A stretch of 45,930 bases of DNA from Zoogloea sp. (GTDB lineage: Bacteria > Pseudomonadota > Gammaproteobacteria > Burkholderiales > Rhodocyclaceae), in NCBI RefSeq assembly GCF_030157465.1, contig NZ_JAOAUU010000103.1:1-45930 (forward strand), read 5' to 3'. Each line of letters begins with the position of its first letter. Position 1 is the first letter of the stretch. The notes under the pieces were generated by a model. The model did no database searches and was not told the DNA's origin. It saw only the letters and a program-made list of their open reading frames with translations. Below are positions 36,164-38,595 of this stretch, piece by piece. The translations under genes were made by a program, and so were the position numbers.

Positions 36164-36215
36164 GGGGAACTCGCGAAGACGTGGATGGGGAATTGGACTG
36201 CCAGACAGGCCGGGG

Positions 36216-36221
36216 AGTCTA
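36216..36221 (-). promoter_or_regulatory. Putative -10 (TAGACT) of aroC
   Basis: TAGACT on the minus strand, 52 nt before the aroC ATG, in the 99-nt ilvN-aroC gap. No clear -35; the hairpin after ilvN lies just upstream. Confidence 0.4.
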
Positions 36222-36224
36222 GCA

Positions 36225-36249
36225 CGCCACCGGCACGGGGCCGGCGGCG
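36225..36249 (-). terminator. Hairpin after ilvN
   Basis: CGCCACCGGC (36225-36234) and GCCGGCGGCG (36240-36249) pair over 10 positions with one G-T pair in RNA and a 5-nt loop. It begins 13 nt after the ilvN stop. There is no U run, so it may be a Rho-assisted end or a 3' stabiliser. Confidence 0.4.
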
Positions 36250-36262
36250 CAGGTATTGCGAC

Positions 36263-36610
36263 TTACTGGAAGAACTCGTCGAGACGACCGAAGACCGGAT
36301 GCTCGCCAGCGTGCTTATTCACGTAGAGGACATCCTCAAGCTTCTCAACTTGCTTGATCATCTTCTCGAGGCGCTGGTCTTCGAAGACCAGCAGCCAGAT
36401 CCGGCTGGTGCTGCCCGTGCCAACCGGCATGCACAGGATGCCTTCGACGTTGAAGGCGCGCCGGGCAAACAGACCGCAGATGTGGCTCATCACACCCGGG
36501 TGGTTGGCAACGCCGAGTTCCAGCACAACCTTGTGGAAACCGTTGTGCTCGGGCACCTCGGGGATGAACTCGGACAGGGGCTTGGTGGCAGAAGTGTTCT
36601 GTTCGGACAT
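36263..36610 (-). CDS. ilvN: Acetolactate synthase small (regulatory) subunit, IlvN type
   Basis: A 115-residue ACT-domain protein, close to the short IlvN type (E. coli IlvN is 96) rather than the ~160-residue Ilv[29 protein letters not shown] is the ACT domain that binds valine for feedback control. GAGGAG precedes the start, which lies 18 nt after the ilvB stop, so the two subunits are cotranscribed. Confidence 0.93.
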
Positions 36611-36628
36611 CGTGTTGTCTCCTCGGGC

Positions 36629-38293
36629 TCAGCCGATCATCTCGGAATTGGCGGCGCCCGGCGGCACCATCGGGTAGACGAATTCGTTCGGATCGATCGT
36701 CGCATGGATCAGGCAGGGGCCCGGCGTATTGAGGGCCTCGGCCAGGGTTGCCCGCGGGTTCGGAACCGGATCGAGATCCACTGCACGCATGCCGAAGCCT
36801 TCAGCGATCTTCAGGAAATCGGTGGGCCGCTCGTAGCGGGACGCCATGATGCGCTTGCCGTAGAACATGCTCTGCTGTTGATGCACCAAGCCAAGGGACT
36901 GGTTGTTGAAGAGGATGATCTTGACGTTGACGTTTTCCTGGGCGGCGGTGGCCATTTCCTGGATGTTCATCTTGAGGCTGCCGTCACCCGAGAAGCACAC
37001 CACGGTGCGATCCGGTGCAGCCAGCGCGGCACCAATGGCAGCCGGAAAGCCGAATCCCATCGTGCCGAGACCGCCCGAGTTGAGCCACTGGCGGGAGCGG
37101 CGGAACGGATAGGCCTGCGCCACCCACATCTGGTGCTGACCGACATCGCTGGTGATGATCGCACTGTCGTCGAGACAGTTGGCCACTGCGTGGATGAGGC
37201 CGTAGGGCGAGCGGGGATTGTCAACGCCCGGCATGGCCAGCGGGAAGCGGCCCTTCAGGCTTTCGACGTGGGACAGCCAGCGCTTGCGCAGCTGGGGCTT
37301 GACCCGCGGCAGCAGCTCGGAGAGCACCTGCCCCACATCGCCGGCGATGGCAACGTGGGCATCCTTCACCTTGTGCAGCTCGGACCGATCGATGTCGATG
37401 TGGATGATCTTGGCGTTCGGACAGAACTCGGCCGTCTTGCCGATGGCACGATCGTCGAAACGGGCGCCGACGCAAATCAGCAGGTCGGCCTCTTCAAGCA
37501 CATAGTTGGTGTAGCGCGCGCCGTGCATGCCCAGCATGCCGAGGGACAGCGGGTGATCCATCGGCATTGCGCCAAGGGCCATCAGCGTCATGGTGGTGGG
37601 CAGCGAAGCCTGCTCGGCAAGCGTGACCGCCATGTGCGCGGCACCGGAGTGGATCACGCCGCCGCCCAGGTAAAGCACCGGACGCTCGGCGGCCTCGATC
37701 ATCTTCGCCGCTTCCTCAACCGCAGCGATGTCGAAACTCGGAGCGGCATCGGGCACCACGACGTCGGGGTAGTCCTCGAAGCTGACCATCTGGTTCTGGA
37801 CGTCCTTCGGCACGTCGATGAGCACCGGGCCGGGCCGGTCGGACATGGCAATGCGAAAGGCCGCCGGAACAACGTCAAGCAGATCCTTGGCCGAGCGGAC
37901 CAAAAAATTGTGCTTGGTGATCGGAATCGTCAGGCCGTAGGTGTCGACCTCCTGGAAGGCGTCGGTACCGATCATCGACAGCGGAACCTGGCCAGTCAGG
38001 GCGATCATCGGTATCGAATCGAGCTTGGCGTCAGCGATGGCCGTCACCAGGTTGGTCGCGCCGGGGCCACTGGAGGCCAGACAGACTTCGGGCCGGCCGG
38101 ACACCCGGGCCATGCCCTGGGCGATGAAGCCGGCGCCCTGCTCATGACGACACAGGACGTGGTGGATCTGCTCGCTCTTGGACAGGGCGTCATACATCGG
38201 CAGGGCCGCACCGCCGGGAACACCGGCGATAGTGCGTATTCCTTGCCGTTCGAGCAGCTTCACAATCAGGTCTGCTCCAGTCATTTGCATCAT
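36629..38293 (-). CDS. ilvB: Acetolactate synthase large subunit, IlvB type
   Basis: IlvB makes acetolactate or acetohydroxybutyrate with ThDP, the first common step of valine/leucine/isoleucine synthesis. The 554-residue protein has the catalytic Glu51 (CRHEQGAGF), QVPLSMIGTDAFQEVD and the ThDP motif GDGSLKMNIQEMATAAQENV to FNN. The ATG at 38293 follows AGGAG by a normal distance; the longer frame to 38356 runs into the attenuator. With the short IlvN and the valine leader peptide this is the enterobacterial ilvBN arrangement. No ilvC is in the window. Confidence 0.97.
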   Translation of the reverse strand: MMQMTGADLIVKLLERQGIRTIAGVPGGAALPMYDALSKSEQIHHVLCRHEQGAGFIAQGMARVSGRPEVCLASSGPGATNLVTAIADAKLDSIPMIALTGQVPLSMIGTDAFQEVDTYGLTIPITKHNFLVRSAKDLLDVVPAAFRIAMSDRPGPVLIDVPKDVQNQMVSFEDYPDVVVPDAAPSFDIAAVEEAAKMIEAAERPVLYLGGGVIHSGAAHMAVTLAEQASLPTTMTLMALGAMPMDHPLSLGMLGMHGARYTNYVLEEADLLICVGARFDDRAIGKTAEFCPNAKIIHIDIDRSELHKVKDAHVAIAGDVGQVLSELLPRVKPQLRKRWLSHVESLKGRFPLAMPGVDNPRSPYGLIHAVANCLDDSAIITSDVGQHQMWVAQAYPFRRSRQWLNSGGLGTMGFGFPAAIGAALAAPDRTVVCFSGDGSLKMNIQEMATAAQENVNVKIILFNNQSLGLVHQQQSMFYGKRIMASRYERPTDFLKIAEGFGMRAVDLDPVPNPRATLAEALNTPGPCLIHATIDPNEFVYPMVPPGAANSEMIG

Positions 38294-38347
38294 CGAATTT
38301 CTCCTAGGGGCTGGGGAGCCGCACTGCAGTCCGGGCCGGGGCGCAAC

Positions 38348-38385
38348 AAAAGACAAAACCCCCGCCGGTTGCGCGCCGGCGGGGG
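38348..38385 (-). terminator. ilvB attenuator terminator
   Basis: CCCCCGCCGG (38359-38368) and CCGGCGGGGG (38376-38385) form a perfect 10-bp stem with a 7-nt loop. On the minus strand it is followed by TTTTGTCTTTT. It lies between the leader peptide stop and ilvB, so it can abort transcription before the structural genes. Confidence 0.95.
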
Positions 38386-38415
38386 TCTGAATTCTTTAAC
38401 GACTACCTGGGACCC
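38383..38415 (-). promoter_or_regulatory. Candidate antiterminator of the ilvB attenuator
   Basis: On the minus strand GGGTC, immediately after the leader stop codon (38411-38415), can pair with GACCC (38383-38387). That uses three bases of the terminator arm, so the two structures exclude each other. The stem is short by eye and may extend with imperfect pairs. Confidence 0.55.
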
Positions 38416-38493
38416 TTACGACGCGCGCTTACCTACGCTTACTACGCGTACTACTACGACGTCGACAGGCAGGAAGCTCGCAATTCGGGTCAT
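38416..38493 (-). CDS. ivbL: Valine-rich ilvB leader peptide
   Basis: A 25-codon open frame starting ATG at 38493 and ending TAA at 38416-38418. It begins MTRIASFLP and then reads VDVVVVRVVSV, so eight of residues 10-20 are valine; six of the eight use GTA. It resembles the E. coli IvbL leader, which also contains VVVVRVV. A ribosome stalling here when charged Val-tRNA is scarce would free the antiterminator. No strong ribosome-binding site is visible. The gene symbol is by analogy. Confidence 0.9.
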   Translation of the reverse strand: MTRIASFLPVDVVVVRVVSVGKRAS

Positions 38494-38527
38494 GGGGTCG
38501 CTAAGTCATATACAGGACTACCTGCGA

Positions 38528-38556
38528 ATTATTCTCACAAAGCCCCGAAAACACAA
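38528..38556 (-). promoter_or_regulatory. Promoter of the ilv leader-ilvBN transcript
   Basis: On the minus strand TTGTGT (38551-38556) and AATAAT (38528-38533) are separated by 17 nt, with -10 matching the consensus at five of six positions. Transcription would start near 38521, 28 nt before the leader peptide. Confidence 0.6.
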
Positions 38557-38595
38557 GTGATTTTTGCACCGCACCAGCCGGTTCCGCACAAAACC

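Follow-up and report, generated by a model that had tools for sequence, protein, structure and literature searches.

Which device controls ilvBN in Zoogloea, and how is it related to the ivbL leader of Escherichia coli? Zoogloea is a floc-forming water bacterium. For the 45,930-nucleotide (nt) stretch of Zoogloea sp. DNA analysed here (the window), a preliminary description had proposed a complete valine attenuator upstream of ilvBN in a host that looked betaproteobacterial, and the NCBI taxonomy places Zoogloea in the Betaproteobacteria, Rhodocyclales. The parts of the proposed device were located in the window and, judged by sequence comparison, the same layout recurs in all 20 Zoogloea loci aligned and in each of the 63 AHAS I loci read outside the genus. 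The locus is very probably a ribosome-mediated transcription attenuator of ilvBN of the ivbL type; its parts, their conservation and the folds were computed, and we infer the promoter, the transcript ends, synthesis of the leader peptide and a response to valine. The device is of the E. coli ivbL kind in a new place, with an ordinary mechanism rather than a new one, and its interest lies in its descent and in the switch of its regulatory codons.

Layout and conservation of the ilvBN leader region

Along the minus strand, the elements follow in the order −35-like hexamer, −10-like hexamer, mini-ORF, leader ORF, GGGTC, spacer, terminator, T-rich tract, AGGAG and ilvB (Table 1). The genes directly 3′ of the leader encode a large subunit (ilvB, 36629..38293, minus strand; 1025.1 bits against NF006016, cut-off 870) and a small subunit (ilvN, 36263..36610, minus strand; 154.7 bits against NF006036, cut-off 128) of the AHAS I type. 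An IlvB that is 96% identical is encoded on a Zoogloea dura contig. Because the window genome encodes an IlvH-type small subunit elsewhere, and no leader enriched in branched-chain residues was found by script within 600 nt upstream of its ilvI, AHAS I would be a second, separately controlled enzyme. Upstream of the hairpin, on the same strand, lies an acyl-CoA ligase gene; at loci L010 and L011 the apparent end of this gene is further upstream of the promoter, with extra sequence in between. A 791-codon open frame on the plus strand (36185-38560), antisense to ilvB and the leader, most likely reflects no more than the composition of the coding strand.

Table 1. Elements of the ilvBN leader region in the window, in minus-strand order
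Element	Positions	Strand	Basis
−35-like hexamer TTGTGT, weak consensus match	38551..38556	-	sequence; TTGTGT or TTGTCT in 20/20 Zoogloea loci
−10-like hexamer AATAAT	38528..38533	-	sequence; found in 20/20 Zoogloea loci
Mini-ORF ATG ACT TAG, just 5′ of the leader ORF	38501..38509	-	ATGAC-starting mini-ORF here in 20/20 Zoogloea loci
Valine leader peptide ORF, 25 codons and stop, IvbL-like, MTRIASFLPVDVVVVRVVSVGKRAS	38416..38493	-	sequence; comparison
Regulatory valine codon run, 8 Val (6 GTA, 2 GTC)	38434..38466	-	sequence; Zoogloea alignment
Antiterminator 5′ strand: GCGCGTCG (38419-38426), stop TAA, GGGTC (38411-38415)	38411..38426	-	pairing, comparison
Antiterminator 3′ strand: GACCC ... 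CGGCGCGC, common to terminator 5′ arm and loop	38371..38387	-	pairing, comparison
Intrinsic terminator hairpin, 10 G-C pairs, loop CGCGCAA	38359..38385	-	sequence; 27-nt core identical in 20 Zoogloea loci
Terminator U-rich tract TTTTGTCTTTTGTT	38345..38358	-	sequence
Shine–Dalgarno-like AGGAG of ilvB	38301-38305	-	sequence; ilvB start 38293

The promoter spacing of 17 nt given in the preliminary description holds for the window, and across the 20 Zoogloea loci the hexamers are 17 nt apart in 16 and 18 nt apart in 4. A generic promoter scan listed no promoter and missed the weak −35 element; transcription would start near position 38521. The mini-ORF comprises two to six codons and begins 17–19 nt past the −10 hexamer in all 20 loci. 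Its stop overlaps the leader start (as ATGA or GTGA) in 17 of them and lies 7 nt upstream of that start in three (L001, L002 and L003); the sister locus L142 lacks the ATG of the mini-ORF. Because the leader ORF of the window has no clear Shine–Dalgarno sequence upstream, translation coupled to the mini-ORF is conceivable.

The leader of 25 codons, with its eight valines within residues 10–20, had been read correctly at the outset, and valine leaders are present in 20/20 Zoogloea loci. E. coli ivbL senses leucine together with valine, and the Zoogloea leader might likewise respond to branched-chain amino acids more widely than to valine alone. One to three leucines precede the valine run in all 20 Zoogloea leaders, a leucine being kept in each just before the proline or leucine that precedes the run; the Tepidiphilus-like leaders L040 and L144 carry VLLLVRV, and L135 has several leucines. 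The window leader, however, contains a single leucine (residue 8) against eight valines, and the codons within the run that are invariant to the letter are GTA. Joint sensing of valine and leucine is thus conceivable though somewhat doubtful, and we treat the leader in what follows as a valine sensor.

Between the leader and ilvB lies the intrinsic terminator, whose perfect 10-bp G/C stem and U tract were found as first described; the stem can be extended to 13 pairs, and a terminator scan found one terminator with 1.0 expected. A search for the leader DNA in 40 genomes, the window's own included, matched 21, all in the genus, and left two of 23 genus members unmatched (G002, 77% complete, and G008, in 900 contigs). 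Twenty Zoogloea loci were aligned, one matching genome (G016) having yielded no locus. Invariant columns make up 31/33 of the terminator, 14/16 of the antiterminator 5′ strand, 35/45 of the ribosome site and start of ilvB, 26/40 of the valine part of the leader, 16/33 of the promoter, 16/44 of the stretch from terminator to ilvB, 7/26 of the first part of the leader and 5/22 of the leader–terminator spacer. The spacer drifts, while the leader, its GTA codons, the antiterminator strand and the terminator are kept in 20/20 aligned loci; valine codons and terminator are the two features whose loss in relatives had been named beforehand as evidence against an attenuator, and this check therefore came out in favour of one. 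The terminator portion of the query also has partial matches elsewhere in two Zoogloea genomes (G003:C86:279461-279508 and G012:C3:113695-113750).

Predicted pairing of the leader end with the terminator

An antiterminator stem of GGGTC and GACCC had been proposed, with the leader stop directly adjoining its arm. GGGTC does follow the ORF end at 38416 and stands opposite GACCC (38383-38387), but these five pairs form only the lower part of the predicted structure, and an upper helix joins the terminator loop to the final codons of the leader. In Zoogloea, GCGCGUCG-UAA-GGGUC pairs with GACCC-CCGC-CGGCGCGC (13 pairs in all, with the stop codon in an internal loop), so the last leader codons and the stop would pair with the 5′ arm and loop of the terminator.

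Judged by sequence, this candidate antiterminator is kept in relatives through changes on both of its sides. Across 83 loci, the energy of pairing between leader end and terminator 5′ arm plus loop ranges from -14.4 to -30.7 kcal/mol; the set includes L002, L003, L019 and L046, which the terminator pattern had missed and which were added afterwards. A loop of CGGCAC comes with the leader end GUGCCG in both loci that have it (L044 and L046), and CUCCGG with CCGGAG in 5/5. Where the loop is CGGUGC, GCACCG lies within 30 nt of the stop in five of eight loci and further upstream in L153; L041 and L156 carry ACACCG instead. The 64 loci with loop CGGCGC comprise 24 with GCGCCG, 35 of the CGCGUCG type (Zoogloea included), 2 with CGCCG and 3 others (L124, L125 and L134). 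No locus of these four classes carries the exact complement of another class, and four loci fall outside the classes, among them L133, in which GCGCCG stands opposite CGGCGU with one G-U pair. For 35 distinct terminators, and with kinship ignored, native pairings average -22.98 kcal/mol against a permutation mean of -20.96 kcal/mol (sd 0.35), and none of 10000 permutations was as good; shuffled leader ends gave -17.2 kcal/mol against the same native value. The 5′ strand lies wholly within the leader ORF in some relatives, including L041, L047 and L156. Because the strand ends 7–14 nt before the leader stop in eight loci (L041, L047, L136, L147, L148, L149, L150 and L156), a ribosome released at the stop would occlude it in a different way in those eight.

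Folding of the window leader with and without a ribosome had been suggested as a check, and was carried out with the ribosome taken to cover -17 to +12 around the A-site codon and with RNA made up to the terminator loop. With the upstream RNA held unpaired, an A site at any of codons 4–24 yields the antiterminator, which drops at the stop. With the upstream RNA free, the 13-pair structure forms at codons 4–13 and 18–19 and is absent from codon 20 to the stop, but at codons 14–16 the 5′ RNA takes the strand, and codon 17 is mixed. Except at these codons 14–16 when the upstream RNA is free, an antiterminator that excludes the terminator is reachable in the computed folds when the ribosome stalls at valine.

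Over the whole set, 81 of the 83 leaders were folded in this way with upstream RNA held unpaired (for L136 and L153 the script found no start). All 81 form the antiterminator with the A site at some valine codon, so stalling permits it in every tested leader. When the ribosome stands at the stop, 54/81 leaders have fewer than 3 expected antiterminator pairs left, so release there clearly removes the structure in two thirds. The folding model always favours the terminator once the RNA is complete, and the antiterminator must therefore form first. For the window leader, the folds predict a protector that would allow termination in the absence of translation. As a general part of the device, a protector stem was rejected, since without a ribosome the antiterminator falls below 3 expected pairs in just 17/81 leaders, again with upstream RNA held unpaired.

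In the mechanism that we propose, transcription would begin near 38521 and the leader would be translated while the RNA is being made. With ample Val-tRNA, the ribosome would reach the stop and cover GCGCGUCG-UAA-GGGUC, the terminator would form and the transcript would end near 38345-38358. With scarce Val-tRNA, above all the GUA-reading tRNA, the ribosome would stall in the valine run, and the leader end could base-pair with the 5′ arm and loop of the terminator ahead of synthesis of the 3′ arm; once this antiterminator had formed, RNA polymerase would continue into ilvBN. At most ribosome positions, the footprint folds agree with these two outcomes.

Distribution and descent

IlvN matches at E <= 1e-12 were found in four of 250 genomes of the order, the window's own included. 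In the betaproteobacterial family f1, 47/101 sampled genomes exceeded the NF006036 cut-off, in 29/68 genera. Among 398 genomes of the phylum there were 45 with a match at E <= 1e-15, 10 of them above the cut-off: the window genome and nine genomes of family f58, which we take to be Enterobacteriaceae. A valine leader and a terminator precede ilvB in 53/53 non-enteric AHAS I loci outside Zoogloea (49 found by script, 4 by eye; L157, at a contig end and without an ilvB start, is excluded from a total of 54) and in 10/10 enteric loci, E. coli K-12 among them (8 found by script and 2 by eye). The non-enteric loci recognized by eye (L040, L135, L141 and L144) have valine leaders of lower valine density, and for the enteric ones (L163 and L166) the script had picked another hairpin. 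The set of 53 includes L046, from a Binatota MAG, and L037, from family f51. Of 70 AHAS loci that are more distant, 3 had both elements according to the script.

At L048 (Fusibacter paucivorans), one of these 70 and with an ilvB 53% identical to that of the window, no valine leader occurs in the 500 nt upstream. What lies upstream of that ilvB is a long leader that contains GGTACCGCG, together with a hairpin that looks like a terminator, and we take it to resemble a T-box. Three more distant loci of family f53 (L171, L172 and L173; IlvB 40–41% identical) have valine-rich leaders, for example MFTKSALNVVLVVVVIVKSLRGCLC, and terminators of different sequence.

A literature search, which covered titles and the openings of abstracts and reached few subscription journals, returned no report of this leader in Zoogloea or its kin. 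A survey of proteobacterial attenuators was reportedly made in 2004 by Vitreschak and others. A 2017 account of 70 genomes, in its accessible part, confines AHAS I to gammaproteobacteria except for Desulfovibrio and one Firmicute, and has it born in gammaproteobacteria by duplication (PMC5727371). Our sampling does not fit that account as there stated.

We compared IlvB proteins in three trees. The largest, of 82 rows, holds 6 of the 20 Zoogloea loci, the 53 non-enteric and 10 enteric loci, and 13 others (10 of the 70 more distant loci and the three weak matches L171-L173). A tree of 61 rows, under a mixture model, leaves out 10 near-duplicates and most outgroups, and one of 46 rows, with bootstraps, leaves out the enterobacterial row L163. 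In all three, the enteric proteins form one clade inside family f1. In the 46-row tree they join L126 and L143 (99/89), then L123 and L138 (100/99), then L133 and L146 (99/95) and finally the Zoogloea group (100/99). A topology that keeps f1 and L037 together was rejected at AU p = 0.0165 (61 rows) and 0.034 (46 rows), a moderate result for a group chosen after the tree had been seen. The leaders, which were not used in the trees, point the same way: those of L123, L126, L138 and L143 end in VVGNAP or VGGNAP with AACGCGCCGTAACGGGG and are mostly GTA, and the E. coli leader ends in VVGNAP with AATGCGCCGTAGGGA and has GTG or GTC as its valine codons. Because the trees nest enteric AHAS I beside loci whose leaders also end in ...GNAP, the attenuated leader and the operon probably moved together into enterics.

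The likeness of the valine run to E. coli IvbL, remarked on from the start, thus looks like homology. The E. coli K-12 attenuator (NC_000913 3852890-3852988) shares with Zoogloea the VVVVRVV core, a terminator with CCCCGCCGGCGC and a downstream AHAS I ilvBN, and its antiterminator follows the same plan: GCGCCG-UA-GGG, from leader end and stop, pairs with CCC and CGGCGC in the terminator 5′ arm and loop. It differs in using GTG and GTC where Zoogloea uses mostly GTA. The Zoogloea leader, in turn, is shorter (25 against 32 residues), lacks a clear Shine–Dalgarno sequence, has a mini-ORF upstream and forms a longer upper helix (GCGCGUCG/CGGCGCGC). Convergence of the leaders, with the nested position of enterobacterial IlvB as a tree artefact, could draw on the moderate AU tests, on the choice of the tested group after the tree was seen and on outgroups that are long branches. 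We nevertheless judge it unlikely, given the 100/99 support for enterobacteria with L123, L126, L138 and L143, the ...GNAP ending common to those four loci and E. coli, a trait outside the tree data, and the terminator core CCCCGCCGGCGC common to E. coli and many betaproteobacterial loci. We retain the reading that this leader and operon share their descent with those of E. coli: IlvB and leader are clearly alike, with moderate AU support for the nesting. By its description in the accessible part of PMC11857589, the ilvBNC attenuator of Corynebacterium glutamicum likewise controls a branched-chain amino acid operon by a leader and hairpin; the two are likened by description alone, and it belongs to another phylum and another operon (ilvBNC).

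That the RNA is a ligand-binding riboswitch rather than an attenuator read by a ribosome is very improbable. The 181-nt leader RNA does fold far better than shuffles (z -5.75); for its last 74 nt, a GC-rich stretch, shuffling makes no such difference (z -0.99). An Rfam scan of the window gave no match at or above a family's gathering score, however, and a scan of the leader alone at a lax threshold gave ten weak matches, all far below their gathering scores; one was RF00514 His_leader, at 16.3 bits with a gathering score of 49. Amino-acid operon leaders such as RF00514 have the attenuator logic in common with this locus, and the features conserved here are a valine-coding run and a stop codon inside the antiterminator strand. 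Still less credible is a hairpin that merely terminates the acyl-CoA ligase gene and a valine-rich frame that arose by chance: the hairpin does lie downstream of that gene on the same strand, but we rejected this reading given that valine frame, GTA codons and pairing with the hairpin loop are kept in 20/20 Zoogloea loci, a conserved promoter-like pair separates the gene from the hairpin, and the layout recurs in the 63 other AHAS I loci.

Valine codon choice and tRNA genes

The proposed attenuator of Zoogloea uses mostly a valine codon that is rare in the genes examined. The preliminary description had taken GTA to be uncommon in this GC-rich context, which would sharpen sensing, and seven window genes bear the rarity out: GTA is 8/222 of their valine codons and 6/8 of those in the leader (Fisher p = 4e-7, kinship ignored). 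Across the 20 Zoogloea loci, it makes up 115/162 valine codons within the last 17 leader codons against 8/744 in the covered parts of ilvB (Fisher p = 5e-96, kinship ignored), and it occupies positions -11, -9 and -6 from the leader stop in all 20. The 53 other non-enteric loci have 259/455 GTA in leaders against 61/2257 in ilvB, the leader being higher in 53/53; for the 10 enteric loci the figures are 0/93 against 34/333.

The window genome has tRNA-Val genes with the anticodons UAC (one), GAC (two) and CAC (one) among 46 tRNA matches. With its CAC gene as query, matches were found in 16/16 betaproteobacterial genomes, in each of which ARAGORN confirmed a CAC gene, and in 0/9 enteric genomes, where a very different CAC gene would escape the search. 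Strong matches to the UAC gene (E below 1e-15) number one in 13 of the 16 betaproteobacterial genomes, two in two and none in G673, and two to five in the nine enteric genomes, the enterobacterial count resting on DNA similarity to two Zoogloea tRNA genes. Anticodons were read for 24 of the 30 loci from the UAC search; 23 were UAC, and the weak match L271 was a tRNA-Phe. If enterics have no CAC tRNA, their UAC tRNA would have to read both GUG and GUA, and the tRNA set alone therefore does not account for the avoidance of GUA in enteric leaders. That codon choice goes with the tRNA set is a correlation seen over a single transfer.

On balance we favour, with some reserve, an origin of the E. 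coli ivbL-ilvBN cassette in Zoogloea-side betaproteobacteria and its movement to an enterobacterial ancestor, in which GTA would have given way to GTG and GTC in accordance with the host's tRNA-Val set while the RNA switch stayed unchanged. The present analysis supplies an antiterminator structure, backed by changes on both sides, and brings much of one betaproteobacterial family (f1) within the range of a control device that is classical in enterobacteria. According to the theory, as given in the accessible part of PMC1183508, the codon used by an attenuator is the one whose tRNA is the first to become uncharged. One switch with two codon choices in two hosts would be a natural experiment on that theory, provided that both the transfer and the change of codons hold.
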